From assembly GCF_900105685.1 (NCBI RefSeq), contig NZ_LT629781.1, positions 62,001 to 126,000 on the forward strand: a DNA stretch of 64,000 nucleotides, in the 5' to 3' direction. Of the stretch, positions 16,318 through 56,487 are shown piece by piece. The DNA is from Verrucomicrobium sp. GAS474. Lineage in GTDB: Bacteria > Verrucomicrobiota > Verrucomicrobiia > Methylacidiphilales > GAS474. Position 1 is the first letter of the stretch; the number at the start of each line of letters is the position of its first letter. The position numbers and the translations under genes were made by a program. The notes beneath the pieces are model-generated. The model had not been told where the DNA came from and searched no databases. It saw only the letters and a list, made by a program, of their open reading frames with translations.

Positions 16318-16334
16318 GCCTGTCCCCGCCTAGG

Positions 16335-35919: not shown

Positions 35920-36795
35920 ATGCTGACCCGGGTTACGAAAAAGGGATACCAACCCCTCCTCCTCGAATCGCTCCACCTCCAGGCGGGGCCGATCCGGGTC
36001 CACCGGCTCCGGCTGAACCGCCACATCGAGGAAACCTCGGTCGTCGCCCTGCACGAGCATCCCTACTCCCAGCTCCTCATCTACGTCACCGGCCAGGGGG
36101 AACAACGCTGCGTCGACCGCCCCCCCACCGCCGTCCACAGCGGCACCGCCGCCCTCTTCCCGCCCCACGCCGCCCACTCCTTCGCCCCCGGCGGGGCGCG
36201 GCGGCCCCTCTGCCTCGTCGTCGATTTCGATTTCCGGGGCGCGGGGAAGTTCGCCCCCTGGATCGGCCTCCTCCCCCAATCGGAACGGGCCGAGATCGGC
36301 CGCTCCCTCTCCGCCCTCGTCCGGCTGAAGGACGCCGACCGCGCCGCCATCCGCCTCCGCGAGGCCGCCCTCGTCCTCTCGATCCTCGAGAAGGTCCTCC
36401 CCGCCGGGGGCTGGATGCCCCGGTTCCAGCCCGAGGGGGGCGAGGGCGCCCTCGTCCGGCGCACCCGCCAGCTCCTCGCCAGCCGGACCGGTCCCCGCAT
36501 CTCGAACCCGGAGCTGGCCCGCCGCCTCGGCTACCAGCAGGACTACCTCAACCGCCTCCTCCAGCGGGCCGCCGGGACGACCCTCGGCCAGCTCCGCGAC
36601 GCCCGACGCCTCGAGGAGGCGAAGAAGGCGTTGGCGAAGGGAAGCCCCGTCCGCAAGGCGGCCGCCGAGACCGGCTGGGCCGACGCCAATTACTTCACCC
36701 GCTGGTTCCGAAAACAGACCGGCCTCCCCCCTTCGCAATGGAGAAAGTCGAAACTGGATTCCCCGCAATCATTTAACCTCGAACCCTATTCCTAG
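35920..36795 (+). CDS. AraC family transcriptional regulator
   Basis: Sugar-responsive regulator of 291 residues. The N-terminal part is a cupin sensor (EHPYSQLLIYVTGQGEQRCV, then TAALFPPHAAHSFAPGG). The C-terminal part from about residue 190 carries two HTH motifs (ISNPELARRLGYQQDYLNRL and KAAAETGWADANYFTRWFRK), the second being the AraC signature. It is divergent from the six-gene uronate operon and probably activates it. The stop codon and last seven residues (NLEPYS region) fall in the terminal inverted repeat of the element at 36781-36993, so the C-terminus may have been altered by that insertion. Confidence 0.9.
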   Translation: MLTRVTKKGYQPLLLESLHLQAGPIRVHRLRLNRHIEETSVVALHEHPYSQLLIYVTGQGEQRCVDRPPTAVHSGTAALFPPHAAHSFAPGGARRPLCLVVDFDFRGAGKFAPWIGLLPQSERAEIGRSLSALVRLKDADRAAIRLREAALVLSILEKVLPAGGWMPRFQPEGGEGALVRRTRQLLASRTGPRISNPELARRLGYQQDYLNRLLQRAAGTTLGQLRDARRLEEAKKALAKGSPVRKAAAETGWADANYFTRWFRKQTGLPPSQWRKSKLDSPQSFNLEPYS

Positions 36796-36993
36796 GTTAG
36801 ACAAGCCCGCGCCGGAGGGGCTGCGCCCCCTTCCCGTAGGCGCGCGTAACGCCGCAGGCCTGAATGGCCTGCTAGGCCGCGCGGAACACCCGGGAAGGGG
36901 CGCAGTGGCGCATCGGCCACACCGCGTCGCTCGCGCCTTGATGGAGAGCCTTTTTGAAGCAACGCGGGCTTGTCTAACCTAGGAATAGGGTTC
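36781..36993 (+). repeat. Intergenic palindromic repeat, family 2, copy 2, with perfect 31-bp ends
   Basis: The 213-bp element is bounded by perfect 31-bp inverted repeats, 36781-36811 and 36963-36993, containing CCTAGGTTAGACAAGCCCGC. The interior holds smaller palindromes (AGGCCTGAATGGCCT; TTCCCG...CGGGAA) and shares ordered blocks with 27760-27939 on the other strand. It supplies the stop codon of the AraC gene. It carries no coding sequence and looks like a MITE-like or REP-like element. No target-site duplication was recognised. Confidence 0.75.
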
Positions 36994-36997
36994 TAAG

Positions 36998-38101
36998 TTG
37001 ATCATCTTGAGTTCCTCTCTTAAAAAGAAAGTCATCGTGACCGGCGGCGCCGGGTTCGTCGGAACCACCCTCGCCCTGGCCTTCCGTCGTCTTCGTCCGG
37101 AGTGGGAACTCCTCTGCGTCGACAACCTCATCCGCCCGGGCAGCGAGGGGAACCGCTCCCGCCTGAAGGAAGCGGGGATCCCCTTCCGCCACGCCGATCT
37201 CCGCGTCCGCAGCGACATCGATTCCCTACCGAAAGCCGACTGGCTGATCGACGCCGCCGCCAACGCCAGCGTCCTCGCCGGGCTCGACGGGGACAACGGG
37301 AGCCGCCAGCTCATCGAGCACAACCTCGGCGGGACGATCGACCTCCTCGAATACTGCAAGCGCCACAAGGCCGGGTTCCTCCTCCTCTCGACCAGCCGCG
37401 TCTACTCGATCCCCGAGCTCGCCGCGATCCCCGTCCAGGTCGACAACGGCGCCTTCGCTCCCGATCCCTTCCAGCTCGACGCCTGGCCCTCCGGGCTGAC
37501 CAAGGAAGGCGTCTCGACCCACTTCTCGACAAAGCCCCCCGTCTCCCTCTACGGGACGACGAAGCTCGCCTCGGAACTCCTCGCCCTCGAATACGCCCAC
37601 GCCTTCGGCTTCCCCGCCGTCATCAACCGCTGCGGGAACCTCGCCGGGGCGGGCCAGTTCGGCCGGATCGACCAGGGAATCTTCGCCTACTGGATCAACG
37701 CGTGGCTCCAGAAGAAGACGCTGAAATACATCGGCTTCGACGGCCAGGGCCACCAGGTCCGCGACTGCCTCCATCCCGACGATTTGGCCGACCTCCTGGT
37801 GAAGCAGATCGAGAACCCCGGCACCGCCCCCTCCCTCCAGAACGTCTCCGGCGGCAACGAGCGATCCGTCTCCCTCAAAAACCTCAGCGCGTGGTGCGAG
37901 GAACACCTCGGCCCCCACGCCGTCGAGAGCGTCCCCCAGACCCGCCCCTTCGACATCCCCTGGATGGTTCTCGACGCCGGCGAGGCCCGCGCCCGCTGGG
38001 ACTGGACGCCGAAACGCTCCCTCGACTCCATCTTCGCCGAGATCGCCCACCACGGGCAGAACCATCCCCGCTGGATCGAGACCTGCCTCGCCGAAGCCTA
38101 A
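36998..38101 (+). CDS. NAD-dependent nucleotide-sugar epimerase/dehydratase (CDP-paratose 2-epimerase-like)
   Basis: Extended SDR acting on nucleotide sugars. The 367-residue protein has the Rossmann loop VIVTGGAGFVGTTLALAF, LLLSTSRVYSIPEL and the active-site Tyr/Lys in SLYGTTKLASELLALEYA. Next come INRCGNLAGAGQFGRIDQG and VRDCLHPDDLADLL; the RCG...DQG pattern is that of CDP-paratose 2-epimerase-like enzymes. The start is TTG at 36998 (or TTG 37007); there is no ATG before the Rossmann loop. It starts 5 bp after the repeat element, so that element must carry or displace the promoter. Followed by a GT2 gene and a second epimerase gene in the same direction. Confidence 0.83.
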   Translation: MIILSSSLKKKVIVTGGAGFVGTTLALAFRRLRPEWELLCVDNLIRPGSEGNRSRLKEAGIPFRHADLRVRSDIDSLPKADWLIDAAANASVLAGLDGDNGSRQLIEHNLGGTIDLLEYCKRHKAGFLLLSTSRVYSIPELAAIPVQVDNGAFAPDPFQLDAWPSGLTKEGVSTHFSTKPPVSLYGTTKLASELLALEYAHAFGFPAVINRCGNLAGAGQFGRIDQGIFAYWINAWLQKKTLKYIGFDGQGHQVRDCLHPDDLADLLVKQIENPGTAPSLQNVSGGNERSVSLKNLSAWCEEHLGPHAVESVPQTRPFDIPWMVLDAGEARARWDWTPKRSLDSIFAEIAHHGQNHPRWIETCLAEA

Positions 38102-40037: not shown

Positions 40038-40358
40038 CCCGAAGCGTCTCTCTCCCATACGCCCCTCTCCCAATAGGAGTCTGGGCGTATTGGCCCTGTC
40101 TATCCCTATCGCTCGTACCCTCGGGCGCTCAGGGAAGCAGCGGATTTTAAAACAGTTCGGAGACACGGCGCCGCCAAAGCGCGTCCGCCAAGTTCAGGCC
40201 CTCCGAAGGGGAGGTCACGGAGGGGCGAAGCCCCTCTGTGGCTATAAAGCGGATCGCCTCCATCTGTACAGGGTTGACCGCGCAGGTCCCGAAGGGCTGC
40301 CCCGCTTTCCTGGCATCCAGGGAAGAGGATCGCTTGGGAGAAACCACGCGTCCGCAGG
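40038..40358 (+). repeat. Intergenic repeat family 1, copy A
   Basis: Fills the 367-bp gap between 40014 and 40382. It shares with copy B (49018-49300) the blocks CTCTCCCAATAGGAGTCTGG, GGGCGTATTGGCCC, CCCTATCGCTCGTA, GCCAAAGCGCGTCCGCC, AGTTCAGGCCCTC and TGTACAGGGTTGACCGCG. With copies C and D it shares the core hairpin GAGGGGCGAAGCCCCTC (40231-40247 region), CTGTACAGGG and CCCGAAGGGC. Its right end, CGCTTGGGAGAAACCACGCG, is the same module found in C and D, here inverted relative to the core. No open frame looks like protein. Confidence 0.8.
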
Positions 40359-40381
40359 TCAGAGACCGGGACGTACCCTAT

Positions 40382-41839
40382 CTACCGCCGCACGTCGCCT
40401 TCCAGCATCAACTCGGACTGGGGCTGCGGCGAGACCGTCAGGCCGAGCTGCCGGGCCGAGGCCTGGAGGAGTTGCTCGACGGTGAAGGGCTTCGGGAGGA
40501 AATCGAGCCCTGCCCGCTTGATCTCGATCAGGTAATGGTCGTCGAGTTCGGTGCCGCTGATGAAGATGAAGGGCTTGTTCGGCTCCTCGCCCCGGATCGC
40601 CAGCAGGACCTCGAAGCCGTCCATGTAGGGCATGTCGACGTCGGAGACGACGAGGTCGAATTTCTCCCCCTCCTTCTGGCTGCCGACCAGGGAGACGGCC
40701 TCGACGCCGTTGGCCGCCGTGGTGACGTGGTAGCCGTAGTGCTCCAGCATCGCCTTCGAGACGCGGCGGACGACGTTGTCGTCGTCGATGAAGAGGACCC
40801 GCTTGCCCTGGCCCAGCGGGATGTCGCTCCGCACCGGCAGGGTGTCGCTGGAGCCTCCCTCCGATTGCCCGACGGAGAGGGCCGGGAAGTGGAGGAGGAA
40901 CTGGGTCCCCTTCCCCACCTCGCTCTCGACGCTCACGAAGCCGCCGAGGCGCTTCACGATGCCGATCACGGTGGAGAGCCCGAGGCCGGTCCCCTTGCCC
41001 GGCTCCTTCGTCGTGAAGAGGGGCTCGAAGATCCGCGCGATCACGTCGTTCGGGATGCCGCAGCCGGAATCGCCGACGGAGAGGACGACGAACGGCCCCG
41101 GGGCGATCCCCTGGCGCTTCGCCACCATCCGCTCGTCGAGGATCACGTTGACGGCCTTCACCGTCAGGTGGCCGCCGACCGGCATCATCGCGTCCCGCGC
41201 GTTCACGCAGAGGTTGAGGAGGATCTGGTGCATCTCCGTCGCGTTGCCGAAGACGTTCCACAGCCCTTTCTCGACGTTGGTCTCGATCGAGATGCAATGG
41301 GGGAACGTGTCCCGGACGATCTTCGCCATGTCGTCGATCAGGGTCCGCAGGCGAAGGGGGCCGTCCTCGCCGCGCTTGCCCCGGACGAAGGTCAGGATCT
41401 GCTTCACCATCGCCGCGCCGCGCTGCGCCGAGGAATCGACCGTCTCGAGGAGCGCCTTCCGCTCCTTCTCGTCATTCGTATCCTCCAGCAGCTGGAGGCC
41501 GATGAGGACCGGCGTGAGGGCGTTGTTGAGATCGTGGGCGACCCCCGCCGCGAGGGCACCGATGTTCTCCATCCATTGTCCGCGCCGGAGCTGCTCCTCG
41601 TAGCTGCGGGCCTGGATCTCCATTCCCTCGACGAGGGAGGCGAGGCGCAGGGCCTCGGCCCGGAGCCTCGTCACTTCCTCAGCCTGCCGCGCATTCGCCT
41701 CGGCGAGCGCCTCCGCCTTCCGCGCGTCCCGGGCCAGGCGGCGGAGTTTCCAGAGTAAAAAAGCGAGGATCGCCAGCGCGATTACCAGGGATAATCCGGC
41801 CCCCGTCAGCCCATGAGATGCAGCGAAAAACGGGTTCAT
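40382..41839 (-). CDS. Hybrid sensor histidine kinase / response regulator
   Basis: Two-component protein of 485 residues. There is one N-terminal membrane segment (LSLVIALAILAFLLWKL, residues 16-32), a coiled-coil to about residue 90, the H-box with phospho-His102 in LAAGVAHDLNNALTP, and the ATPase boxes NLCVNARDAMM, DSGCGIPND and GTGLGLSTVIGIVKRLGG. A C-terminal receiver domain follows (about 345-460) with phospho-acceptor Asp400 in LVVSDVDMPYMDG and the Lys in FLPKPF. No periplasmic sensor domain or PAS domain is visible, so the input is unclear. There is no adjacent partner regulator; output may be through phosphotransfer. Confidence 0.9.
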   Translation of the reverse strand: MNPFFAASHGLTGAGLSLVIALAILAFLLWKLRRLARDARKAEALAEANARQAEEVTRLRAEALRLASLVEGMEIQARSYEEQLRRGQWMENIGALAAGVAHDLNNALTPVLIGLQLLEDTNDEKERKALLETVDSSAQRGAAMVKQILTFVRGKRGEDGPLRLRTLIDDMAKIVRDTFPHCISIETNVEKGLWNVFGNATEMHQILLNLCVNARDAMMPVGGHLTVKAVNVILDERMVAKRQGIAPGPFVVLSVGDSGCGIPNDVIARIFEPLFTTKEPGKGTGLGLSTVIGIVKRLGGFVSVESEVGKGTQFLLHFPALSVGQSEGGSSDTLPVRSDIPLGQGKRVLFIDDDNVVRRVSKAMLEHYGYHVTTAANGVEAVSLVGSQKEGEKFDLVVSDVDMPYMDGFEVLLAIRGEEPNKPFIFISGTELDDHYLIEIKRAGLDFLPKPFTVEQLLQASARQLGLTVSPQPQSELMLEGDVRR

Positions 41840-42045
41840 TGGATGACGTTGAAAACCACGGGGCCATTAAAATCACCCCCCTTCCAGACTTCAAATCTTT
41901 AAATCGCCATTGGTGGAATTACCTACCCAAAAACGCTCCAAGGACGTTAAACGACATGACCGGATTGAGGGCGTCTTTGTTCCCAATCTCCCCATTCCCC
42001 GCATTCCCCGCGACACGGACAGCGTGCCCGCCATCGGATAAAGAA

Positions 42046-42867
42046 ATGGCCACCACCGCGGTAACCCTCGTTCCCCTCCCCGTCCCAGGCCCCCTCCCCC
42101 CCATCATGAATCTTTACATCGATCTCGACCGTTCCGTCCTCGTCTCCGGCCCGTCGAACAGTGCTGTCGTCACCCAGCTCGCCTTCAAGCGGGGGGACAC
42201 CGCCGCCCTCGCCGTCACCTTCCTCCAGGGGCAGGCCGACGGCGGCTATCTCCCCGTCGTCCTCCCGACGGGGACGGCGTTCAAATTCGGCCTGAAGGCG
42301 CAGGGCCAATACAGCGGGGCCTTCCTCGTCTACACCGATGCCTGGACCGCGCCCGCCGGGGAGGCCACCGCCTACGGCCTCTGCCCCGACTTCCGCTCCG
42401 CCTCGCTCGACACCCTCCTCGACCCCGAGGGGGCGGGCGACCTCCCCCAGGTTTCCCTCATGGGGGAGATCGCGTGGACCCTCCCCTCGGGGCGGAAGGG
42501 AAGCACGCGTACCTTCACCGCCCTCGTCGCCAACGACCTCATCAAGGACACCGAAGGGGCCCCCGCTCCCGCGACCCCCGGCTACTACACCGCGGGAGAG
42601 AGCGACGCCCGGTACCTCCCGAGCAGCCTCGGAGGGATCGTCGACCTCACCGTCGGCCTCCGCACTTACACCGTCGACCTCACCGCCCTGGCTCTCCCCG
42701 CCTCGCCGCGGGGCGCCCTCTTCGGCTTCGTCGCCGCGACGGGGAGCGAGAACACCTTTGGCGCGGTCATGGTCTCCTCCCAGACCACCGCCACCACCCT
42801 CTCCCTCCTCACCACCGCCCTGCCCGACGCCCCCAATTGCCGCCTCGCCTACCTTTTGATCCTCTGA
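42046..42867 (+). CDS. Phage tail-fibre/baseplate-like hypothetical protein
   Basis: I do not recognise a defined family. The 273-residue protein is beta-rich and small-residue-rich, with an N-terminal part built of strands (MNLYIDLDRSVLVSGPSNSA; AFKRGDTAALAVTFLQG) that resembles phage baseplate/fibre N-terminal domains. A mid-protein YYTAGESDARYLPSS closely resembles the YYTKxEsDARYl linker common in phage tail fibres. I chose ATG 42046 (MATTAVTLVPLPVPGP); ATG 42106 (MNLYIDL) is also possible, and the open frame further upstream overlaps the kinase gene. No other phage gene is near, so it may be a domesticated or isolated fibre-like protein. The next gene in the same direction encodes the PEGA membrane protein. 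Confidence 0.6.
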   Translation: MATTAVTLVPLPVPGPLPPIMNLYIDLDRSVLVSGPSNSAVVTQLAFKRGDTAALAVTFLQGQADGGYLPVVLPTGTAFKFGLKAQGQYSGAFLVYTDAWTAPAGEATAYGLCPDFRSASLDTLLDPEGAGDLPQVSLMGEIAWTLPSGRKGSTRTFTALVANDLIKDTEGAPAPATPGYYTAGESDARYLPSSLGGIVDLTVGLRTYTVDLTALALPASPRGALFGFVAATGSENTFGAVMVSSQTTATTLSLLTTALPDAPNCRLAYLLIL

Positions 42868-42968
42868 GTATCGATTTTTCCATAAAAACCGGTCAAAACA
42901 GAATTAAGTAGTTCCACCTGAATCATTCCCCGAGCGATTCCCTTGCCTAAAAACGCGACTTCCGATAA

Positions 42969-45587
<2,619 letters not shown>

Positions 45588-45674
45588 GAGGCCTTCGGGA
45601 CGGGGATGCCTCCCCTGCATCAGGGGAAGACGGAGAGGCGCTTCAAGCTTCCGAGGGGTTTGCCCCGGTCGATC

Positions 45675-46604
45675 TTACCCGTCGGAAAGCAGATCGTTCA
45701 TCTCCTTTTCAAGCAGATCGAGGATGTGGTCGGCAGCGTTGTTTCCCTTCGCCGGCGTCGCCGTGTTGTAGCGAGTCTGGGGGTAATTCATCAACAGCAG
45801 CCGCTCGAGCTTGCTGATCCAGGAACGATGCCGCGGGATGATGATCCGCAGATGGGTCGCCTCCTCCAGCCAGACCTTGTGCCGATGCTCGTTCAGACGC
45901 CGTCCCAGATTCGACTCTCCCCCGCCCGCCTTGCCGATGTAGAGGTACTTCTTGTTCGCCTTGAAACAATAGCAGCCCGCCTCGTCGATGAGCTTCGCTT
46001 CGGTGAGCCATTGCTTGGCATCGGCATACTTCTCGTCGCAGTTGCTTCCCCTGAGCTTCCGCTGAATGTCGCAATCCTTCCACACCAGGGCCCGTATCCA
46101 CTGGTCGTAGGTTCGATCCTTCTGCCAATAAGCCAAAATCGATTCATTCACCCGCGCCTTGATCAGCTTGGCCTGCTTGCGGGTCGTCTCATAGGCGGGA
46201 TCGAGATCGATCGCCCTGATTTGGCTGATCAACGACTCCCGCTGGGCTTTCCAGAGCAAGTCGAGGTCGGCGCGGATGACCTTGAGCAGCTGATATTTGC
46301 TGAGATCCTTTTCGCCCTCTTCCTCCGCCTCGCCGTCGTCGTCGCTCCCCGCTTCGGCGATGGCCTGATGATCGACCGGACGTTCTTCATCGACAGGAGG
46401 CAGTTCGGGGATCGCCGCCGTCGTCATCTCCACCGTCTCCTCCGAAAACCGGACACTCCCCAACGGGATCCAATCCTTTTCCCCCGCGGGACAAACCTGC
46501 GTTTCGGGAGCCAGCTTTTGCGAAAGCAGGAGTTCTTTCATCTCCCTTTCGGAATGAGGCCCGTCGACCGTTTGTCCGTCTAGACAGTAAAAATATTCTT
46601 TCAT
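45675..46604 (-). CDS. GYF_2 domain - GIY-YIG nuclease fusion protein
   Basis: The 309-residue protein starts with a GYF_2-type domain (residues 3-52: YFYCLDGQTVDGPHSEREMK, LLLSQKLAPETQV, DWIPLGS), seen in many bacterial membrane or signalling proteins as an adaptor. An acidic linker (about 85-100) and a helical middle region follow. The C-terminal part is a GIY-YIG nuclease domain with GCY (210-212), YIG (222-224), Arg235/236 in NLGRRLNEH, the metal-binding Glu267 in SKLERLLLMNY and Asn280, so all key residues are present. The combination is unusual. It could cut or process DNA, but no partner is evident. It is divergent from the potassium channel gene, with 58 bp between starts. Confidence 0.78.
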   Translation of the reverse strand: MKEYFYCLDGQTVDGPHSEREMKELLLSQKLAPETQVCPAGEKDWIPLGSVRFSEETVEMTTAAIPELPPVDEERPVDHQAIAEAGSDDDGEAEEEGEKDLSKYQLLKVIRADLDLLWKAQRESLISQIRAIDLDPAYETTRKQAKLIKARVNESILAYWQKDRTYDQWIRALVWKDCDIQRKLRGSNCDEKYADAKQWLTEAKLIDEAGCYCFKANKKYLYIGKAGGGESNLGRRLNEHRHKVWLEEATHLRIIIPRHRSWISKLERLLLMNYPQTRYNTATPAKGNNAADHILDLLEKEMNDLLSDG

Positions 46605-46662
46605 AAGGAGGTTGGAGTTTCACGCTGGCAGCACAAACAGAGATAATGTATGGAGTACAATT

Positions 46663-47415
46663 ATGATCCATCAAGCGAATAAGTCCGAGTTGACCAGGGA
46701 AGGCATCGGCTTCTTCGATCTTTTTGTTTTCCTCCTCTCGCTCTATGTCATTGCCGAGTTGGTCGCCGAAAGTCTTCTCGACCTCGACCGGGAACTTTTG
46801 AAGCTGCTCCAGAAAATCGATTTCGCCGTCTGCCTGATCTTTCTCTACGACTTTGCCCTCCGCTTCATCAAGGCCCCCAACAAGCTGAAGTTCATGCGCT
46901 GGGGATGGATCGATCTGGTGTCGAGCATCCCGGCCTGGAACGGCTTCTTCGTCGGCCGGGCGCTCCGCATTTTCCGCCTCCTGAGGTTGATCCGCGCCTA
47001 TCGCTCGTTCCAATCCCTCATCAGCCATCTTTTCAAGAACGTCCCGCAAGGCACGCTGACCTCGCTGATCATCGTCACGTTTTTCCTCATCCTCTTCTCC
47101 TCGATCGCCGTTCTTTCCTTCGAGCGGGATTCCCCGGGATCGAATATTCGGAGCGCGGGCGATGCCTTGTGGTGGACGATGACGACGATCACCACGGTCG
47201 GCTACGGGGATCACTATCCCGTTTCGCTGGAAGGACGGATCGTCGCCGTGCTCCTCATGGTCGCGGGCGCGGGCATCTTCGGGACCTTCACCGCCGTCGT
47301 CTCCTCGATGTTCATCCGCACCCCGAAAAAAGTTCCCGCCGAAATCGAGGAACAATTAGTGGAGATCCGCCAGCTCCTGGAAGAACTGAAGGCGCAGAAG
47401 CAACAGAAGGGATGA
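46663..47415 (+). CDS. Voltage-gated-type potassium channel
   Basis: Six-transmembrane ion channel subunit of 250 residues. The start ATG 46663 has GGAG 7 bases upstream and is preferred to the upstream TTG. Membrane helices S1-S3 lie in the first 90 residues. S4 has Arg at every third position (Arg99, 102, 105, 108, 111, 114 in RALRIFRLLRLIRAYR), the hallmark of a voltage sensor. The pore helix and selectivity filter are WWTMTTITTVGYGDHYP with TVGYGD at 178-183. A short C-terminal coiled-coil (EIEEQLVEIRQLLEELKAQK) could assemble the tetramer. There is no RCK/TrkA domain. Probably in the inner membrane. Confidence 0.92.
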   Translation: MIHQANKSELTREGIGFFDLFVFLLSLYVIAELVAESLLDLDRELLKLLQKIDFAVCLIFLYDFALRFIKAPNKLKFMRWGWIDLVSSIPAWNGFFVGRALRIFRLLRLIRAYRSFQSLISHLFKNVPQGTLTSLIIVTFFLILFSSIAVLSFERDSPGSNIRSAGDALWWTMTTITTVGYGDHYPVSLEGRIVAVLLMVAGAGIFGTFTAVVSSMFIRTPKKVPAEIEEQLVEIRQLLEELKAQKQQKG

Positions 47416-47419
47416 GAAA

Positions 47420-48406
47420 CTAAACCGCCTGCTCCGTGAACACCCGGCGGATGACTTCCTCGACGGGGACTTCCTCGATCGTGATGTCGTCGGGGCGGAG
47501 GTCGGTGAGGATGCGGGGGGTGATGGTGGTCAGTTCGGCGCGGGGGACGCGGAGGCGGAGCTGGGTCGGCTCCTGCTCCAGGACTTCGCCGTAGGCGGAG
47601 AGGTCGGCGGGGAGCGCGGGGGTGCCGTTCCAGCGGAGGCCGACGATCTTGTGGGAGGCGAAGCGGTCGGTGATGCCGCTGAGGTCGCCGTCGTAGAAGA
47701 GCTTGCCGTGGTCGATAATGAGGACGCGGCGGCAGAGCTCCTCGATATCCCGCATGTAGTGGGAGGTGAGGACGGTGGTGACTTTCTTTTCCTTCGCGTA
47801 GGCCCCGAGGAAGTCGCGGACTTTCTGGTGGGAGACGACGTCGAGGCCGATGGTCGGCTCGTCGAGGAAGAGGACGCGGGGCTCGTGGAGGAGGGCGGCG
47901 ACGATCTCGAATTTCATCCGTTCCCCGAGGGAGAGCTCCCGGACCATGACGTGGAGCTTTTCCTTCACGCCGAGCCAGTCGACCAGCTCGTCGAGGACCC
48001 GCTTCGAGCGGACGGGATCGAGGCCGTAGAGGGACCGGTTCAGGTTGAGCGATTCGAGGGCGGGGAGGTCCCACCAGAGCTGGTTCTTCTGCCCCATGAC
48101 GAGGGCGAACTGGCGGCGGAAGGCGTCCTTCCGTTCCCACGGGCGGTAGCCGAGGATGCGGGCCTCGCCCGAGGTGGGATGGAGGAGGCCGGAGAGCATC
48201 TTCAGCACGGTGGTCTTCCCCGCGCCGTTGGGGCCGAGGAAGCCGACGAGTTCCCCTTCCTCGATGTTGAAGGTGACGGTGTCGGCGGCGCGGGTTTCCT
48301 CGAAGCGGCGCCGGTAGAGGCCGCGCAAGGCCCCGAGGAAGCCGGGCTCCTTGTGGTAGGTGCGGTAGACCTTCGTGAGGCCGCTGACCTCGATGATGGG
48401 GGGCAT
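47420..48406 (-). CDS. ABC transporter ATP-binding protein
   Basis: Nucleotide-binding subunit of 328 residues. Walker A is GFLGPNGAGKTTVLKML, the signature is LSLGERMKFEIVAALLHEP, Walker B is VLFLDEPTIGLD and the switch His is in TTVLTSHYMRDIEEL. The N-terminal insertion FLGALRGLYRRRFEETRA and the C-terminal regulatory tail (EELTTITPRI-like) fit the subgroup that works with DUF990-type ABC-2 permeases. No permease gene is adjacent; downstream is the oppositely oriented channel gene. It begins 17 bp after sufT and may be transcribed with it. Cargo unknown. Confidence 0.9.
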   Translation of the reverse strand: MPPIIEVSGLTKVYRTYHKEPGFLGALRGLYRRRFEETRAADTVTFNIEEGELVGFLGPNGAGKTTVLKMLSGLLHPTSGEARILGYRPWERKDAFRRQFALVMGQKNQLWWDLPALESLNLNRSLYGLDPVRSKRVLDELVDWLGVKEKLHVMVRELSLGERMKFEIVAALLHEPRVLFLDEPTIGLDVVSHQKVRDFLGAYAKEKKVTTVLTSHYMRDIEELCRRVLIIDHGKLFYDGDLSGITDRFASHKIVGLRWNGTPALPADLSAYGEVLEQEPTQLRLRVPRAELTTITPRILTDLRPDDITIEEVPVEEVIRRVFTEQAV

Positions 48407-48423
48407 GGGCGGGACTCTGATCG

Positions 48424-48978
48424 TCAGATCAGGCCAAGCTGCATTTTGCCGACTTCGCTGATCATCCCCTGGTTCCACGGCGGGCTCCAGACGAGGTCGA
48501 CCTGGGCGTTGGCGATGCCGGGAAGATCGAGGATCTTCTGCCGGGCGTCGCCCGCGATGACGGGGCCCATGCCGCAGCCAGGGGCGGTGAGGGTCATCTG
48601 GATGACGACCTTGTGCTTCCCTTCGTCGGCCCCTTCGGAGAGCTTCTCGATCTTGCAATCGTAGACGAGGCCGAGGTCGACGATGTTGACGGGGATCTCG
48701 GGATCGAAGACGAGGCGGAGCTGCTTGAAGACGGTCTCCTCGTCGATGACGCAGGGCTCGCCACTCTCGGCGGCGGCGGCGGGGACTTCCTTCCCGAGGG
48801 CGTCGCCGTCCTTCGCGTCGATGCGGACGAGGTAGGCGTCGGCGAAGAGGACGGTGTAGGAGCCGCCGAGCGACTGGGTGATGACGACAGAGCCGCCCGC
48901 GGGCAGTTCCATCGGGTCGCCACTGGGGATCTTCACCGCGCGGACGGCGCGGGACAGGATGATCTTTTCTTCGCTCAT
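48424..48978 (-). CDS. sufT: Iron-sulfur cluster assembly accessory protein SufT (MIP18/DUF59)
   Basis: DUF59-family protein that helps in Fe-S cluster maturation. The 184-residue protein has an N-terminal extension typical of SufT (IILSRAVRAVKIPSGDPMEL) and the DUF59 core with VFDPEIPVNIVDLGLVYDC, then MTLTAPGCGMGPVIAGDA containing the conserved Cys. The C-terminus is VDLVWSPPWNQGMISEVGK. It is on the same strand as sufCBD but separated from sufD by a 336-bp gap that holds repeat copy B. It may have lost, or gained, its own promoter through that insertion. Confidence 0.88.
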   Translation of the reverse strand: MSEEKIILSRAVRAVKIPSGDPMELPAGGSVVITQSLGGSYTVLFADAYLVRIDAKDGDALGKEVPAAAAESGEPCVIDEETVFKQLRLVFDPEIPVNIVDLGLVYDCKIEKLSEGADEGKHKVVIQMTLTAPGCGMGPVIAGDARQKILDLPGIANAQVDLVWSPPWNQGMISEVGKMQLGLI

Positions 48979-49017
48979 GAGGGGAGAAGGATAACGCGGG
49001 ATAGAGCGGGTGGCAAA

Positions 49018-49300
49018 CACCGAAGAGGCGATACGCTCTCCCAATAGGAGTCTGGGCGTATTGGCCCCGTCTCTCCCTATCGCTCGTATCCTCGGGCGTA
49101 CCGGAACCATCCGATTTTAATCCAGTGAGAAGACGAGGCGCCGCCAAAGCGCGTCCGCCTAGTTCAGGCCCTCAGAGGGGGAGGTTCCAGGAGGGGCAAA
49201 GCCCCTCTTGGGCTATAAAGCGGGTCGCCTCCAGCTGTACAGGGTTGACCGCGCCAGCCCCGAAGGGCCGCCCCGCTCCCCCCCCGCATTCAGGGAAGCG
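49018..49300 (+). repeat. Intergenic repeat family 1, copy B
   Basis: Lies in the 336-bp gap between the sufD stop (49315) and the sufT start (48978). It is nearly collinear with copy A for about 280 bp; shared blocks include CTCTCCCAATAGGAGTCTGG, GGGCGTATTGGCCC, GCCAAAGCGCGTCCGCC, GGCTATAAAGCGG and GTACAGGGTTGACCGCGC. The core hairpin reads GAGGGGCAAAGCCCCTC. The right-hand module CGCTTGGGAGAAACC of copy A is missing. CCAATA and TATTGG form a small palindrome at the left end. Nothing else is seen in this gap. Confidence 0.8.
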
Positions 49301-49314
49301 CCCCGCCTGCCAGA

Positions 49315-50685
49315 TCAAGCCGCCCGATCGTACTTCTTCTCGATCAACTCGTGCAGTTCCTCCGAGAGCGCCGCATCGCCAAGGCGGTGCAATACCTCAT
49401 CGAAGAACCCAAGAACGAACAAACGACGCGCGATGGAAAGCGGAATCCCACGCTGGGCCATGTAGAAGACTTCCTCCCCCCGGATCGGCCCGCCCGTCGA
49501 GCCGTGGGTGCAGCGGACGTCGTTCGCCTCGATCTGCAAGCCGGGAAGCGAATTCGCCTCGGCCCCCTCGCTCAGGAGGAGGTTCGGATTGCTCTGGTAG
49601 GCATCGGTCTGCTGCGCGCCGGGGTCGACGGCGATCATCCCGGCGAAGACGGTCTTCGCGGTGTCGGCCAAGGCGTTCTTGTAGAGGAGGTCGCTGGTGG
49701 TGTGGTCGGCGACGTGTTCCTGGTAGGTCCGCTGGTCGAAGATCTGCGTCCCGGTGGCGGCGGTGAGGGAGAGCATGTCGCTCCGGCTTCCGGCGCCGAG
49801 CATCCGGCTCTTGTTCTCGACGCGGGAGTAGGCCCCGCCGAGGTTGAGGGCGAAGCTGAGGGCCGAGCCGTCCCGCTCGACGGCGGTCGAGCCGGTCTGG
49901 AAGGAGCGGACGGCCTCGTCGAAGTTCTGGATGGCGATGGAGCGGATCTTCGCGCCGGTCGCGGCATGGAGGTCGACGGAGCCGACGCTGAAGCCGCCCT
50001 TGGCCGCGGTTAGGGAGCCGTAGTGGACGACGATCTCGGCCTTGCTGTTCGCCTCGGCGACGACGAGGGTGTGGGGGAAGATGGCGGCGCCCGACTCGCC
50101 GATCCAGTGGTGGACCTCGACGGGGGCGGCGATCTCGACCCCCTTGGGGATGTAGAGGAAGGCCCCGGCGCGGCAGTAGGCGCGGTGGAGGGCCTCGAAC
50201 TTCGCCCCGCCCAGCGTCGTGGCGTGGGTCATGAAGTACTTCTCGACGAGGGCCGAGTGGGTCTTCAGGGCCTCGGAGAAGGGGAGGAAGATCACGCCCT
50301 GGGAGAGGAGCTCGCCCGGGAGGGCGCGGAAGAAGAGCTGCTCGTCATTGGCGAAGGCGAGGGCGGCGACGGCCTTCGACTTGGCGGCGCGGGCGAGGAG
50401 GCGGTCTTTCGCCTCCTGGCGGGCGGCGGCGGAGAGGGGGACCCCGGCGGTGTAGCCGTCGAGGGTCAGCTTCGTCGTGTCGGTGAAGCGCCACGCCTCG
50501 TCCTTCCGCTTCGGCATGGGGAGGGCGGCGAAGCGGTTCCACGCCTCCTGCTGGCCGACGCGCCACCACTGGGGAAGGCCCGCCACGGTGGCGGCTTCGA
50601 AGTCGGGGGCGGTCGTGATCGGCTGGGGGGCGGAGGGGAAGGCTTGCACTGCGCTATCGCACGGTTCTGAGACAGTCTGGGACAT
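49315..50685 (-). CDS. sufD: Fe-S cluster assembly scaffold subunit SufD
   Basis: SufD pairs with SufB in the SufBC2D complex that builds Fe-S clusters. The 456-residue protein has an N-terminal helical part (PMPKRKDEAWRFTDTTKL) and the long beta-helix core, with GVEIAAPVEVHHWIGESGAA, NLGGAYSRVENKSRMLGAGS and the C-terminal KCTHGS-like DVRCTHGSTGGPIRGEEVFY and MAQRGIPLSIARRLFVLGF. The conserved His in CTHG corresponds to the SufD residue implicated in cluster formation. It follows sufB by 30 bp. Confidence 0.93.
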   Translation of the reverse strand: MSQTVSEPCDSAVQAFPSAPQPITTAPDFEAATVAGLPQWWRVGQQEAWNRFAALPMPKRKDEAWRFTDTTKLTLDGYTAGVPLSAAARQEAKDRLLARAAKSKAVAALAFANDEQLFFRALPGELLSQGVIFLPFSEALKTHSALVEKYFMTHATTLGGAKFEALHRAYCRAGAFLYIPKGVEIAAPVEVHHWIGESGAAIFPHTLVVAEANSKAEIVVHYGSLTAAKGGFSVGSVDLHAATGAKIRSIAIQNFDEAVRSFQTGSTAVERDGSALSFALNLGGAYSRVENKSRMLGAGSRSDMLSLTAATGTQIFDQRTYQEHVADHTTSDLLYKNALADTAKTVFAGMIAVDPGAQQTDAYQSNPNLLLSEGAEANSLPGLQIEANDVRCTHGSTGGPIRGEEVFYMAQRGIPLSIARRLFVLGFFDEVLHRLGDAALSEELHELIEKKYDRAA

Positions 50686-50715
50686 GGGGAAGGGAAGAGG
50701 AAGGACAGGCGGAAC

Positions 50716-52143
50716 TTAGCCGACGGAACCTTCCATTTCGAGTTCGATGAGGCGCTTCAGCTCGACGCTGTATTCGAGCGGGAACTGCTGGACGAGGTCG
50801 TTGACGAAGCCGTTCACGGCAAGGCTCATCGCGGCCGCCTCGGAGAGGCCTCGCTGCTGCATGTAGAAGATCTGCTCGGCGTTGACCTTGCTGACGCTCG
50901 CCTCGTGCTGGACGGAGTTGCCGTCGCCCTTGATGGTGATCGCGGGGTAGGTGTCGGTCCGGGAGTTGGTGTTGATCAGGAGGGCGTCGCACTCGGTGTT
51001 GTTCTTGCAACCCTTGAGGTGCGAGGGCATGTGGACCTGGCCCCGGTAGCTGGAGCGGCCCTTGCCGACGCTGATGCTCTTCGCGACGATGGAGCTGGTG
51101 GTGTCGTCGGCCTGGTGGATCATCTTCGCGCCGGTGTCCTGGTGCTGGCCGTCGTTGGCCAGGGCGATGCTGATGACCTCGCCGCGGGCGCGCTTCCCCT
51201 TCATGACGACGCCGGGGTACTTCATCGTGAGGCGGGAACCGATGTTGCAGTCGATCCACTTCACCTCGGCGTCCTCCATCGCGATGCCGCGCTTGGTGAC
51301 GAGGTTGAAGACGTTGGCGCTCCAGTTCTGGACGGTGATGTACTGGATCTTCGCGCCCTTCAGCGCGACGAGCTCGACGACGGCGCTGTGGAGCGTCGCG
51401 GTCTCGAACTTCGGGGCGGTGCAGCCCTCCATGTAGACGACCTCGGCCCCCTCGTCGGCGATGATGAGGGTCCGCTCGAACTGGCCGAAGTTCTCCGCGT
51501 TGATGCGGAAGTAGGCCTGGAGCGGGTGGCTGACCTTCACGCCCGGGGGGACGTAGATGAAGGAGCCGCCGCTGAAGACGGCGCTGTTCAGCGCGGCGAA
51601 CTTGTTGTCGCCGGTCGGGATGACCTTGCCGAACCACTTCTTGAAGATCTCGGGGTGCTTCTGGAGGCCCTCGGTGCTGCCGACGAAGATGACGCCCTGC
51701 TCGCCGACGGCGGCCTTGATGTTGGAATAGGCGGCCTCGCTGTCGAACTGGGCCTCGACGCCGGCGAGGAACTTCCGCTCCTGCTCGGGGATGCCGAGGC
51801 GCTCGAAGGTGTTCTTGATGTCGTCGGGGACGTCTTCCCACGACCGCTTCGGCTGCTGGCCCTGGGAGAGGTAGTAGCGGATCTTGTCGAAGTCGATCGC
51901 CTCGAGGTCCTTCGTCGCCCAATGGGTCGGCATCGGCATCTCCTGGAAGGTCTTCAGCGCCTTCTTGCGGAATTCGCGGATCCAGTCGGGATCGCCCTTC
52001 ACGTCGGAGATGTAGTCGACGGTCTTCTCGGAAAGGCCGACCCCCGCGTCGAAGGCGTAATCCATCTTGTAATGGAAATCGCCGACGCCCCGCCCGAGAT
52101 CGAAATCGACTTCGGGTTTGAGTTCTTCAGTTTCGGTGGCCAT
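50716..52143 (-). CDS. sufB: Fe-S cluster assembly scaffold subunit SufB
   Basis: Core scaffold of the SUF system, 475 residues, the normal SufB size. It has [20 protein letters not shown] near the N-terminus, [12 protein letters not shown]-like sequence, [20 protein letters not shown], and [20 protein letters not shown] with the conserved Cys that receives sulfur. [20 protein letters not shown] and [20 protein letters not shown] are the C-terminal signature. It lies 22 bp after sufC and 30 bp before sufD. Confidence 0.96.
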
Positions 52144-52165
52144 GGGGGTGGTTCGGTGGAGGGAA

Positions 52166-52906
52166 TTAGACCGCGGCGAGTTCGCCGTAGCCTTCTTTTT
52201 CGAGCTTCTTCGCGAGTTCCTTGTCGCCCGTCTGGACGATGCGGCCGCCCGCGAGGATGTGGACCTTGTCCGGCACGATGTAATCGAGCAGGCGCTGGTA
52301 GTGGGTGATGACGAGGATGCCGAGGCTGGGGCCGCGGAGTGCGTTGACGCCGTTGGAGACGATGCGGAGGGCGTCGATGTCGAGGCCGGAGTCGGTCTCG
52401 TCGAGGATCGCGTAGGCCGGTTCGAGCATCGCCATCTGGAGGATCTCGTTCTTCTTCTTCTCGCCGCCGGAGAACCCTTCGTTCACGTTGCGGGCGGTGA
52501 GATCCTTCGGCATCTCGAGGAGGGCCATCTTCTCGCGGATCTTCTTGTAAAACGCGACGGCGTCGATGTCCTCGCCCTCGGGGAGGCGGGCCTGGAGGGC
52601 GGCGCGGATGAAGGTCGCGATGGAGACCCCGGCGATCTCGCTCGGATACTGGAAGGCCATGAAGAGGCCCTTCCGGGCGCGGACGTCGGGCTCGAGTTCG
52701 AGGATGTTCTCGCCGTCGAGGAGGACCTCGCCGCCGGTGACGGTGTAATCGGGATGGCCGGCGATGATTTTCGCCAGGGTGCTCTTGCCCGCGCCGTTCG
52801 GCCCCATGATGGCGTGGACCTCGCCCTTGGGGACTTCGAGGTTCAGGCCGCGAAGGATTTCCCGATCCCCGATCGAGGCGTGCAAGTCTTTAATGATCAA
52901 ACTCAT
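52166..52906 (-). CDS. sufC: Fe-S cluster assembly ATPase SufC
   Basis: ABC-type ATPase of the SufBC2D complex, 246 residues. Walker A is [18 protein letters not shown], the SufC-typical signature is [20 protein letters not shown], Walker B is [20 protein letters not shown] and the switch His is in [15 protein letters not shown]. It is the first gene of the sufCBD operon. SufS, SufU/SufE and SufR are not in the window. The 231 bp upstream (52907-53137) would hold the promoter; I recognise no regulator site there. Confidence 0.96.
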
Positions 52907-53137
52907 ATTGAAAGTGGTCTATCCTACCCCACCGGGGGAGGGAGCGCAATCGCTCTATCCACATGAGGATCAAGAACTCCGGTTCTTTTGGCAACTTCTT
53001 TTGGTGGCTTTTGTCTCTTTCTTGCGGTTTACGGTCTTTCTTTGGCCGTATCCCAGCCTTGCTTCAAAGGGGGGACCGATAAAACATTGCCTCCCTGTCC
53101 GCCCCCCCCCATCATCCCATTCCCCGATGGGGCGTAA

Positions 53138-53211
53138 CGGAGCGTAGCTCAGTCTGGTAGAGTGCTAGCTTTGGGAGCTAGATGTCGCAGGTTCGAATCC
53201 TGTCGCTCCGA
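53138..53211 (+). tRNA. tRNA-Pro (anticodon TGG)
   Basis: A complete 74-nt cloverleaf. The acceptor stem CGGAGCG pairs with CGCTCCG. The D arm is GCTC/GAGT. The anticodon stem CTAGC/GCTAG encloses the loop TTTGGGA, giving anticodon TGG with the G37 typical of tRNA-Pro. The T arm GCAGG-TTCGAAT-CCTGT is standard. The discriminator base is A and CCA is not encoded. It reads proline CCA codons (and probably other CCN). Confidence 0.96.
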
Positions 53212-53292
53212 CGCCCGACCGACGGGGCTAGAAGCGAAAAGCTCATCCCGCCGGAGGCCCAATTCGGATGGCGGAGGGGTCCACGGGGCCGC

Positions 53293-53307
53293 AATCCTGT
53301 CGCTCCG
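53293..53307 (+). repeat. Direct duplication of the tRNA-Pro 3' end (att-like)
   Basis: AATCCTGTCGCTCCG here repeats exactly bases 53196-53210 of the tRNA gene, 97 bp further on and in the same orientation. Duplication of a tRNA 3' end is the usual trace left by integration of a mobile element at an attB site. Repeat copy C begins about 12 bp beyond it. Confidence 0.6.
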
Positions 53308-53318
53308 GGCGGTACCAA

Positions 53319-53618
53319 GGACTCGCGAAGTTATGGGTAATGCCCTTCGGGACTGGACACAGACCCTGTACAGCTGGATGTAACCCGCACGTATTAGACG
53401 ACGCAAGAGGGGCTTCGCCCCTCCTGGACTCGCCTCCCGGCCCTGCAGTTTCCCCTGACGAACAAGTGTCGCTACCGCGACGCAGTCCCCGTCTGATCGG
53501 CCCGAACTGTTGGAAGTGATACCGCATTAGGCCGTCCGCTTCGGGGAGAGAGTGTCCGCTAGATCCCCTATCCGCTTGGGAGAAATTACGCGTCCGCATG
53601 CCGACGGAACCGAAGCGG
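53319..53618 (-). repeat. Intergenic repeat family 1, copy C
   Basis: Inverted relative to A and B, and nearly collinear with copy D. Shared plus-strand blocks are CCCTGTACAGCTGGATGTAA, CGCAAGAGGGGCTTCGCCCC, CTCCTGGA, CCCCGTCTGAT, ACCGCATTAGGC, GTCCGCTTCGGG, GTCCGCTAGATCCC and ACGCGTCCGC. Compared with D it has about 55 extra bases near 53429-53485, which include a GTCGC/GCGAC hairpin. It occupies the gap between tRNA-Pro and the terminator of the beta-CASP gene. No gene is seen. Confidence 0.8.
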
Positions 53619-53632
53619 CCATCCCCCCAAAC

Positions 53633-53668
53633 AAAAAGCCGCGCCCCTCTCGGGGCGCGGCTTTTTTT
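53633..53668 (-). terminator. Rho-independent terminator
   Basis: AAAAAGCCGCGCCCC and GGGGCGCGGCTTTTTTT pair around a TCTC loop. On the minus strand it lies about 18 bp after the beta-CASP gene stop; the flanking A and T runs make it potentially bidirectional. Confidence 0.9.
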
Positions 53669-53685
53669 GCGAAACCTCCAACCGA

Positions 53686-55119
53686 TCAAACCTCGATCGT
53701 TTCCCCGGCGGGGGGGATGACGACCTGGATCTCGGGGCGGAGGGTGTTGATCTGGCCCTTGAACCAGGCGAGGGCTTCGGGGTCTCCGTGGACGAGCATG
53801 CAGACGCGGGGGTTGACCCGGAGGATGTAGTCGAGGATGTCTTCGCGGAGGGCGTGGGAGGTGAGGTCGAAGTGCTTCACCTTGCAGTTCACCTGCTGCT
53901 CGCCCGCGAGGGATTCGAGGACGACGTAGTCGCCCTTCGGCGTGGCGAGGAGGCGTCCGGCGGGGGACTCCGTGTCGCAGTAGCCGACGAAGAAGATCGA
54001 GTTCTTCTCGTTCTCGAGGAACTTCTGGCCGAGGGTGTTGGAGAGGGTCTTCTCGGTCATCATCCCGGAGGAGATGAGGTAGAGGTCGCCCTTGCGGGGC
54101 TTGAAGTTGCGGACGCGCTTGCCGTCCATGACCTCGGGCATGCCGTGGTTCAGGAGCTTCAGGTCGGGGTGGAAGCGGGTGGAGCGTTTCGCGAGCTTGT
54201 CGTAGATCGCGGAGAAGTTCTTCCCGAGGCCGCCGATGAAGATGGGGCGCTTGCCGATGCGGCCCTTCTGGAGCTGGAGGTAGACTTCGGCGAGGAATTC
54301 CTGGGTCTTGCCCATCGCGAAGATCGGGATGAGGACGGAGCCGCCGTTCTCGAAGGTTTCCTCGATCTCCTTCACGAGCTTCTCGATGACGACGGAGCGG
54401 TCTTCCTTCTTCGGGGAGGCGCCCTTCGTGGTCTCGGTGATGAGGACGTCGATCTTCTCCGTGGGGAAGGAGGCGGCCTTCATCAGGGTCTGGTCGGTGA
54501 AGTTGATGTCGCCGGTGTAGAAGATGCGGCGGCCGCGGTGGTTCAGGAGGACGCCGACGGAGCCGAGGATGTGGCCCGCGTCGTAGAAGGCGAAGGTGAG
54601 CGGATCGTTCTTCGGCTTGGCCTGGCCGTGGAAGGAGTAGGGCTTCTCCAGGCCACAGGAACGCCACCGCTGGACGAGTTGGGCGAGTTCCCCGTGGGTG
54701 AAGAGGGGGTATTCGGGAATGTTATACTCGTCCCGCTGCTTGATCATGACCTCGACCGAGTTATGGAGGAGGGGATCGGCAAGGAAGTAGCTCCCCTCGC
54801 TCATGAAGACGGGGACGTCGGAGTGCTCCCGCATGGCCAGGGGGAGGGCCCCGACGTGATCATGGTGGGAGTGGGTGAGGAAGATGCCCTTGATGTTCTT
54901 ACCCCGGGAAGGGGCGAAATTCGGGGTTCCGCGATTGCCGTCGAGGCGGGGATGCATACCCGCATCGAGGATCACGCAGCCGTCGTCTCCGAAGTCAGCG
55001 AGGTAAGAATTGGCTCCAATCTCATTGGAGCGGGTCATGTTAGTAAAACGCACAGGGGGAGGAGCAAAGCATAGACTTTGCGGAAGTGTCGAGACATTCA
55101 ATCCGGGGAGGTCTCCCAC
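53686..55119 (-). CDS. Beta-CASP metallo-beta-lactamase-fold hydrolase (RNA-processing exonuclease-like)
   Basis: Metal-dependent hydrolase of the family that includes RNA exo- and endonucleases. The 477-residue protein has the MBL motifs in order: the di-zinc site FLTHSHHDHVGALPLA, then FAFYDAGHILGSVGVLL and FYTGDINFTDQ. The beta-CASP part follows (VLIPIFAMGKTQEFLAEVYL; YLISSGMMTEKTLS) and a C-terminal VHGDPEALAWFKGQI with the last metal His. The GTG start at 55119 keeps the conserved segment PPVRFTNMTRSNEIGANSYL; the ATG at 55038 would remove part of it. It is divergent from the outer-membrane protein gene across a 106-bp AT-rich gap. RNA is the likeliest substrate. Confidence 0.87.
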   Translation of the reverse strand: MGDLPGLNVSTLPQSLCFAPPPVRFTNMTRSNEIGANSYLADFGDDGCVILDAGMHPRLDGNRGTPNFAPSRGKNIKGIFLTHSHHDHVGALPLAMREHSDVPVFMSEGSYFLADPLLHNSVEVMIKQRDEYNIPEYPLFTHGELAQLVQRWRSCGLEKPYSFHGQAKPKNDPLTFAFYDAGHILGSVGVLLNHRGRRIFYTGDINFTDQTLMKAASFPTEKIDVLITETTKGASPKKEDRSVVIEKLVKEIEETFENGGSVLIPIFAMGKTQEFLAEVYLQLQKGRIGKRPIFIGGLGKNFSAIYDKLAKRSTRFHPDLKLLNHGMPEVMDGKRVRNFKPRKGDLYLISSGMMTEKTLSNTLGQKFLENEKNSIFFVGYCDTESPAGRLLATPKGDYVVLESLAGEQQVNCKVKHFDLTSHALREDILDYILRVNPRVCMLVHGDPEALAWFKGQINTLRPEIQVVIPPAGETIEV

Positions 55120-55225
55120 CTCGGGAACATAAGGTAGAAACTACATAATCAACTAGAATTAACAAATTGACTCGTGAATCAAAACCGTTAGCGTGGGACC
55201 CCAAATCGCAAAAGCCTCGCCTGCC

Positions 55226-56239
55226 ATGAAGACGCCCACCCTCTCCGCGCTCGCCTTATTCACCCTCGTCGCCGCCGCGCCGCTCCTCCGCGCCCAGTCG
55301 AACCTCGAAGACATCTCGACGACGCCGGTTCCCGCCGCCGCCGAGGCCGCCGCGCTCGACCCGGAGAAAGAGCCGTCGAAGAAAAGCCAGGACAGCAAGG
55401 GGATCGCCTTCCTCCCCCCGAAGAGCGGGATCCGCCAGGAACTCTCCCTCGATTACGGCTACGCGGCCGGATCGGACCTGAAGAAATCGGGGGCGAGCGG
55501 CTCCCTCCAGGAACAGTCGAGCCACTTCGCCTATAACCTGACCGTCCCGCTCGATGCGAAATGGACGACCCGCTTCGGCATCGCCGAGAGCCGCATCGAC
55601 TTCGGCCGCCCGGGCGGTTCCCCCCTCCCCCAGAATCTGCAGACGACGACACTGAGCCTCGGCGCGCAATACAAGATCGACGACCATTGGGCCGCCTTCG
55701 GCGCGATCGCCCCGCGCCTCAGCCTGATCGACGGCTGGGACCGGATCAACTCCCAGGAGGTCCAGTTCGGCGGGGCCGTCGGCGCGGTCTATATCGTGAA
55801 CCGCGACCTCGTCTTCACGATGGGCCTCGGCATCAATCCGGGGAACGAGGATCTGCCGGTGATGCCCCTCGTCGGCGTCCATTGGGTCTTCGCGAAGGAT
55901 TGGACCCTCGACCTCGGCATCCCCCGGACGGCCCTCAGCTACCAGATCCTCCCGAAGCTGAAGTTGATTCCCGTCATGGTCGGCTTCGACGGCGGGACGT
56001 TCCACACGAGCAAGACCTACGGCAATGCCTTCGGCCAGCCCGGACTGAACGACAAGAAGCTCCAATACACCGAGGTCCGCGTCGGCAGCGGGGCGAGCTA
56101 TGCGTTCCTGCCGAACCTGAGCCTCGATCTGACCGGGGGCGTGATCGCCTACCGGAAGTTTGATTTCAAGGACGGCGGGTATAGCCCCCAGGCCGATCCG
56201 GCGCCTTACGCGCAGATCGGGTTGAAGCTCGGGTTCTAA
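55226..56239 (+). CDS. DUF6268-like outer-membrane beta-barrel protein
   Basis: The 337-residue precursor has a signal peptide (MKTPTLSALALFTLVAAAPL, cut near LRA-Q at about residue 23). A Pro/Ala/Lys linker is followed by alternating amphipathic strands, such as QELSLDYGYAAGSDL, HFAYNLTVPLDAKWTTRFGI and TTTLSLGAQYKIDDHWAAFG, and the protein ends in KLGF with the C-terminal Phe of an outer-membrane barrel. Features fit the DUF6268 group, whose function is unknown. The stop codon is immediately followed by repeat copy D. Confidence 0.75.
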   Translation: MKTPTLSALALFTLVAAAPLLRAQSNLEDISTTPVPAAAEAAALDPEKEPSKKSQDSKGIAFLPPKSGIRQELSLDYGYAAGSDLKKSGASGSLQEQSSHFAYNLTVPLDAKWTTRFGIAESRIDFGRPGGSPLPQNLQTTTLSLGAQYKIDDHWAAFGAIAPRLSLIDGWDRINSQEVQFGGAVGAVYIVNRDLVFTMGLGINPGNEDLPVMPLVGVHWVFAKDWTLDLGIPRTALSYQILPKLKLIPVMVGFDGGTFHTSKTYGNAFGQPGLNDKKLQYTEVRVGSGASYAFLPNLSLDLTGGVIAYRKFDFKDGGYSPQADPAPYAQIGLKLGF

Positions 56240-56487
56240 GGGGTCGCGAAGGGAGGCGGTGGGTGCTCCTTCGGGACCGGGCAGAAGCCCTGTACAGCTG
56301 GATGTAACCCGCACGGGTTTTGAGACGCAAGAGGGGCTTCGCCCCTCCTGGACCTCCCCGTCTGATAGGCCTGAACTGTTTGGAGCGGCACCGCATTAGG
56401 CTGTCCGCTTCGGGTAGAGAGCGTCCGCTAGATCCCTTGTCCGCTTGGAAGGAACCACGCGTCCGCGTGCTGGCGGAACCGAAACGG
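56240..56487 (-). repeat. Intergenic repeat family 1, copy D
   Basis: Fills exactly the space between two convergent stop codons (56239 and 56488). Collinear with copy C without its 55-base insertion. On the minus strand it shares with A and B the core GTTCAGGCC, GAGGTCCAGGAGGGG, CGAAGCCCCTCTTG, CCAGCTGTACAGGG and GTCCCGAAGG. The end shared with C is CGGTTCCG..GCGGACGCG (minus strand). Confidence 0.8.

Follow-up and report, generated by a model that had tools for sequence, protein, structure and literature searches.

A high-copy mosaic intergenic repeat family and a small covarying module in the genome of Verrucomicrobium sp. GAS474

The window analysed here is the whole 64,000-nt stretch of DNA at positions 62001–126000 of the study genome (G000), which is a single contig of 3.76 Mb. 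SufB was matched best in MAGs of the Spartobacteria/Terrimicrobiaceae type, which places the host in Verrucomicrobiota. Positions are those of the window unless the study genome is named. Four similar stretches in the window, referred to as copies A to D, raise the question of what they are and whether they exist elsewhere. A reading based on the letters alone (the sequence-only reading) had described them as a four-copy family confined to 40–56.5 kb and had proposed either a mobile element or a structured RNA.

The four copies in the window

The core covariance model recovered the four copies where they had been reported, with E values between 3.8e-24 and 9.9e-17 in the 64-kb window. The next-best match reached only E 0.07, so the first 40 kb holds no further core copy, as had been noted. 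Copies A (40066–40305, plus strand; nhmmer AB profile 273.6 bits, core model 114.6 bits) and B (49037–49276, plus strand; 259.6 and 115.5 bits, respectively) are full AB-type units, consisting of the AB 5' module and the core. Copy D (56241–56482, minus strand; nhmmer CD profile 262 bits, core model 106.2 bits) is a full CD-type unit, which begins 2 nt past the stop codon of a gene whose end is at 56239. Copy C (53322–53613, minus strand) is a CD-type unit split by an insert called module M, and it was matched by the CD profile in two pieces of 95 and 112 bits and by the core model with 82.5 bits. The minus-strand position of C and D relative to A and B corrects the earlier description.

The ordered core blocks GTTCAGGCC, GAGGGGCGAAGCCCCTC (GAGGGGCAAAGCCCCTC in B), CTGTACAGGG and CCCGAAGGGC are present with minor differences between the copies, and in copy C the insert separates the first two of them. 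The core hairpin, which has a covarying lower stem, was located by pattern search at 40220–40236 (plus strand) in copy A, 49191–49207 in B, 53407–53423 in C and 56331–56347 in D. The left modules also agreed with the earlier description: one module is common to A and B, and another is common to C and D. Likewise, the 3' flank of copy A, up to 40358, contains the piece GCTTGGGAGAAACCACGCGTCCGC of the CD end module at 40332–40355, inverted relative to the core of A, and the gene calls placed all four copies between genes. Adjoining copy C, at 53638–53670, a strong GC hairpin followed by a T run was seen by eye and resembles an intrinsic terminator.

Copy number, range and site occupancy

The restriction of the family to 40–56.5 kb holds inside the window and fails for the genome. 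A pattern search of the complete genome counted 146 exact occurrences of the hairpin GAGGGGCNNNGCCCCTC and 0 of the reversed control. BLAST with copy D as the query gave at least 52 genomic places (40 of 180 candidates scored), and with copy A at least 53 (40 of 169 candidates scored). In a targeted ~370 kb of the 3.76 Mb, 119 blocks held 166 unit matches, with the pieces of split units counted separately. The genome-wide total, scaled by the hairpin count, is roughly 170 units, which is a rough estimate.

The AB query was searched in 60 genomes, and matches were obtained in the study genome and in G002, one of the two other genomes of the genus, and in none of the other 58 relatives; the sister genome G001 gave no match. 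By this distribution the family is lineage-specific, being limited to a part of a single genus-level lineage within Verrucomicrobiota. No match was found in viral contigs, plasmids or literature strings.

The flanks of twelve sites of the study genome were searched in G001 and G002. Site 16309–16540 (study genome) is element-free in both of them, with two convergent genes directly abutting, and site 1480549–1480786 is element-free in G002. The sites that are also occupied in G002 include the one at the gene before copy A and those at 1670235, 347340, 1637356, 1681149 and 1656416 of the study genome, and some of the sites occupied in both genomes carry different modules. The occurrence of both element-free and shared orthologous sites shows that sites have been gained or lost after the species diverged, and an element-free site can also reflect loss. 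No clear target-site duplication was seen at the two empty-site loci compared, whose flanks have diverged.

Unit structure and recombination among copies

The unit is composed of a hairpin-bearing core of ~105 nt and a 5' module, and full units align over ~240 nt (alignments of 87 such units for AB and 16 for CD). The core is combined with at least three alternative 5' modules, namely AB (CCAATAGGAGTCTGGGCGTA...), CD (GGACGCGTAGTTCCTCCCAAGCGGAC...) and EF (GAGATATCTTCAGGGGTTCAGCACC...), and a fourth variant, which has few occurrences in the study genome, is frequent in the copies read from G002. Many units form inverted composites, about 430–1,000 bp in length, in which either the 5' modules or the 3' tails face each other; examples with alternating orientation are found at 419774–420277 and 1670235–1670943 of the study genome. 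Single AB and CD units lack terminal inverted repeats, which appear only as the two-unit inverted pairing of the composites. An unsystematic look at the alignment revealed no GTAG or CGTC tag at the foot of the core hairpin. A k-mer block map was discarded because it was too unspecific owing to codon bias.

Linkage between variable positions was analysed in the 87 AB units, in which 52 two-state columns form 1326 pairs. In 1199 of these pairs, every one of the four combinations occurred three times or more. The mean r2 fell from 0.38 at a distance of 1–5 bp to 0.09 at 16–40 bp and 0.02 at 151–260 bp, a decay that was reached in none of 500 permutations of the column positions. Moreover, segments such as TCGCCTCC/TTACATCC are common to AB, CD and EF/GH units. 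The decay of r2 with distance points to heavy recombination between the copies, from which we infer frequent gene conversion among dispersed members of the family. Recurrent mutation could partly explain the low linkage, but it does not by itself predict a decay with distance. Such a set of roughly 170 dispersed repeats near linkage equilibrium in one chromosome lends itself to measuring, in a natural setting, how distant copies in bacteria undergo gene conversion.

Genomic placement and the nature of the family

According to gene calls made with a simple codon-usage script, none of the 119 blocks lies inside a gene: 57 are located in convergent, 53 in tandem and 8 in divergent gaps, and one has no left gene in reach. 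The excess in convergent gaps is highly significant (p about 1e-17 when compared with the gene pairs of the window itself). Block ends are commonly found 0–40 nt from stop codons and gene starts lie further away, and both unit ends, not one alone, face gene ends. Single units in tandem gaps comprised 13 in sense and 20 in antisense orientation (p 0.30); there is no orientation rule relative to transcription between tandem genes.

We consider it probable that the copies are members of a BIME-like mosaic family of intergenic repeats that is non-autonomous, present in high copy number and maintained by insertion supplied in trans and by gene conversion among copies. A process acting in trans would have placed new units at positions where they do no harm, and the family would be homogenised, with its segments constantly exchanged, by gene conversion between dispersed copies. 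The hairpins may persist for one of two reasons: the mover could recognise them in single-stranded DNA, or mRNA 3' ends could tolerate or profit from them. In addition, module M, a separate structured module of ~60 nt dispersing by itself, would have entered copy C. Of the two possibilities named in the sequence-only reading, the mobile element agrees with the copy number, the exclusively intergenic placement, the element-free sites and the exchange of modules, and support for the structured RNA is weak where the unit as a whole is concerned.

A RAYT gene had been suggested as the partner of the repeats, and no match to PF01797 (Y1) was found in the complete genome, the control being positive in 5 of 14 genomes. 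Reverse transcriptase (RVT_1) and DDE_Tnp_1 gave no match in the study genome either. One sub-threshold match to rve was observed at 1022014–1022268 of the study genome (locus L392), inside an ORF of about 860–900 aa. Mosaic repeats can thrive without a detectable RAYT.

REP, BIME and REPIN repeats have hairpins and exceed 100 extragenic copies per genome; they alternate in orientation, form multi-module composites, lie at gene ends and show compensatory changes in the stems (PMC2817692; PMC3733652). The family described here resembles them in being high-copy, extragenic and hairpin-bearing, in its composites of alternating orientation, in its position at gene ends and in its compensatory stem changes. 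However, its units are ~240 nt long and each holds a hairpin, whereas REPs are palindromes of 20–40 nt; in addition, it has alternative 5' modules on a common core, its copies are near linkage equilibrium, as measured here, and, unlike REP/BIME systems with RAYT transposases, it was found without a RAYT (Y1) gene in the study genome. As the unit size and the missing RAYT set it apart, the family is best termed BIME-like and should not be filed as REP/BIME.

Like MITEs, the family is short, non-coding and present in many copies, and some of its composites have inverted ends. Unlike MITEs, its single units lack terminal inverted repeats. No clear target-site duplication was seen at two loci, and no parent transposon was found among the families searched (Y1, RVT_1 and DDE_Tnp_1 gave no match, and rve a sub-threshold one). 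BOX elements of Streptococcus pneumoniae are modular intergenic repeats with interchangeable subunits. The similarity of the present family to BOX, drawn by description, lies in the modular intergenic make-up, and the sequence, module size and host of BOX are unrelated.

The copies might instead be a repeated structured RNA (a small RNA, an mRNA 3'-end stabiliser or a terminator), existing for the useful fold of a transcript, and the units placed directly after stop codons would suit such a role. The lower stem of the core hairpin also shows compensatory changes across subfamilies (13 double-change cells against 5.4 in shuffled data), and the sense strand of the hairpin has 19 G-T cells against 2 A-C cells, nearly all at one conserved pair. 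However, single units fold like shuffled sequences (AB −96.6 vs. −90.3, sd 7.3), the antisense strand folds slightly better than the sense strand, and the consensus fold of the whole unit is weak, without any gain on the sense strand; fold energies far below those of shuffles were obtained only for the inverted composites, as they must be for inverted repeats. The covariation looked for on the strength of the sequence-only reading was thus present in the core hairpin and in module M, and it was not matched by any better-than-shuffled fold of whole single units. The Rfam search of the window yielded only a tRNA, with no match above the gathering score in the core and M regions. The restriction to the genus, the absence of units from many sites in sister species and the facing of gene ends by both unit ends also speak against an RNA. 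The lack of orientation preference in tandem gaps, together with ordinary fold energies, makes a regulatory RNA working in one orientation unlikely for the whole unit, and we regard the RNA explanation in general as improbable.

A family of DNA-level sites for chromosome organisation or for supercoiling relief between convergent genes, a role proposed for gyrase-binding BIMEs, would have been distributed through recombination and retained by selection. It would agree with the strong excess in convergent gaps, the palindromic blocks and the independence of orientation, and it can be compared with the properties of BIMEs reviewed in PMC2817692. This explanation is nevertheless quite improbable, since sites were gained or lost between sister species, the sister genome G001 has no match to the AB query, and a position at gene ends is expected of REP-like repeats anyway, insertion there being harmless. 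Finally, an isolated local duplication in one part of the chromosome, with which the mere four copies found by the core model in the window would agree, is ruled out by the abundant further copies around the chromosome (BLAST with two queries and the count of exact hairpins) and by those in G002.

Module M

The insert in copy C (53427–53489, minus strand) is 63 nt long and represents a slightly shortened copy of module M (covariance model R3, 49.2 bits, E 3.3e-8), a covarying three-helix module of ~60 nt. In the study genome, M occupies two different places of the core, and in G002 it is found in many unrelated contexts; both orientations relative to the core occur. M-free counterparts were found for about nine contexts (study genome and G002 together, grouped by eye, in the DNA fetched), and the insertion of M or the replacement of a loop by it alters only a few nucleotides. 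Three M copies in tandem with a period of about 60 nt were observed at one locus of G002 (L271, C110).

The first M model gave 44 matches in the study genome, 69 in G002, 2 in G001 and 1–6 in each of 13 further genomes of the order, of which the weakest, near E 0.007, may be due to chance. Model R3 found no match at 80 named Verrucomicrobiota loci around SufB genes. The exact 3'-end pattern of one M variant, searched in 384 genomes of the class, occurred only in G002 and G220. In genomes of the same order belonging to family f9 (L243, L247 and L248), M was observed inside GTAG-like hairpin repeats (GTAGCGGC...GACCGCCG), which constitute a repeat family other than that of the window.

Double-change cells in M numbered 25 against 7.5 and 33 against 11 in sequence-only alignments and 154 against 56.5 ± 4.6 in the model-fitted alignment of 85 distinct sequences, all counts treating related copies as independent. 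One pair is found as G-C, C-G and U-A, and another as C-G, G-C, U-A and A-U. The compensatory covariation of M beyond chance is strong and fits RNA and single-stranded DNA alike.

Tiny protein-free hairpin elements are known from intergenic regions of mitochondria, namely the mobile GC clusters and double-hairpin elements of fungi and the repetitive hairpin-forming elements of sponges (PMC4478555, PMC2800124). M is likewise tiny, protein-free and scattered intergenically. It differs from the mitochondrial elements in being bacterial, in having a covarying three-helix fold conserved across an order and in its position next to some tRNA genes whose 3' end recurs as a direct repeat.

Module M beside tRNA genes

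A tRNA-Pro gene (TGG) is located beside copy C (53138–53212, plus strand; ARAGORN). Its 3' end AATCCTGTCGCTCCG (53196–53210) recurs at 53293–53307 as a 15-nt direct repeat about 80 nt downstream. The stretch CCAATTCGGATGG at 53213–53307 (plus strand), which ends in this repeat, is possibly a tRNA-associated M-like sequence (weak, 5.5 bits with the model), and it resembles the tRNA-Ala loci of G220, a genome of the same class and another family. At the latter loci, two M matches start in the 3' end of tRNA-Ala and finish in its 16-nt direct repeat. The same layout of M was found at tRNA-Gly of G001, with a repeat of 20 nt within the tRNA that continues beyond it, at tRNA-Ala of G002, with a 17-nt repeat, and at tRNA-Ser of G051, with a shorter repeat read by eye. 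The succession of a tRNA, M or an M-like stretch and a 10–20 nt repeat of the tRNA 3' end was observed at 53138–53307 of the window and at loci L274, L276, L244, L387 and L266. Direct repeats accompanied by M are thus seen at tRNA-Gly and three tRNA-Ala genes, probably at tRNA-Ser and possibly at tRNA-Pro.

In the DNA fetched, the repeat of the tRNA end was present downstream in 7 of 28 tRNA entries and upstream in none of the 28; as the sample, which includes some duplicates and several entries fetched because of M, is biased towards M, the downstream frequency cannot be generalised. The pattern of tRNA-end repeats itself is hard to obtain by chance.

We tentatively propose, as a possibility still rather doubtful, that M is a new protein-free micro-element of ~60 nt, which would first insert at the T-arm or 3' end of a tRNA, leaving a direct repeat, and later, across an order of Verrucomicrobiota, enter the hairpin loops of other intergenic repeats, among them the mosaic family; the fold of M may aid its own mobility. 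Should M be independently mobile, few structured mobile elements of bacteria would be smaller, and the association with tRNA ends offers a testable route for its movement.

A second intergenic hairpin repeat was observed at 36775–36999, with inverted ends of 37 bp that are 95% complementary. A partial relative with an M-like 3' end lies at about 27797–27895, and further matches are located near positions 1426500 and 375500 of the study genome.
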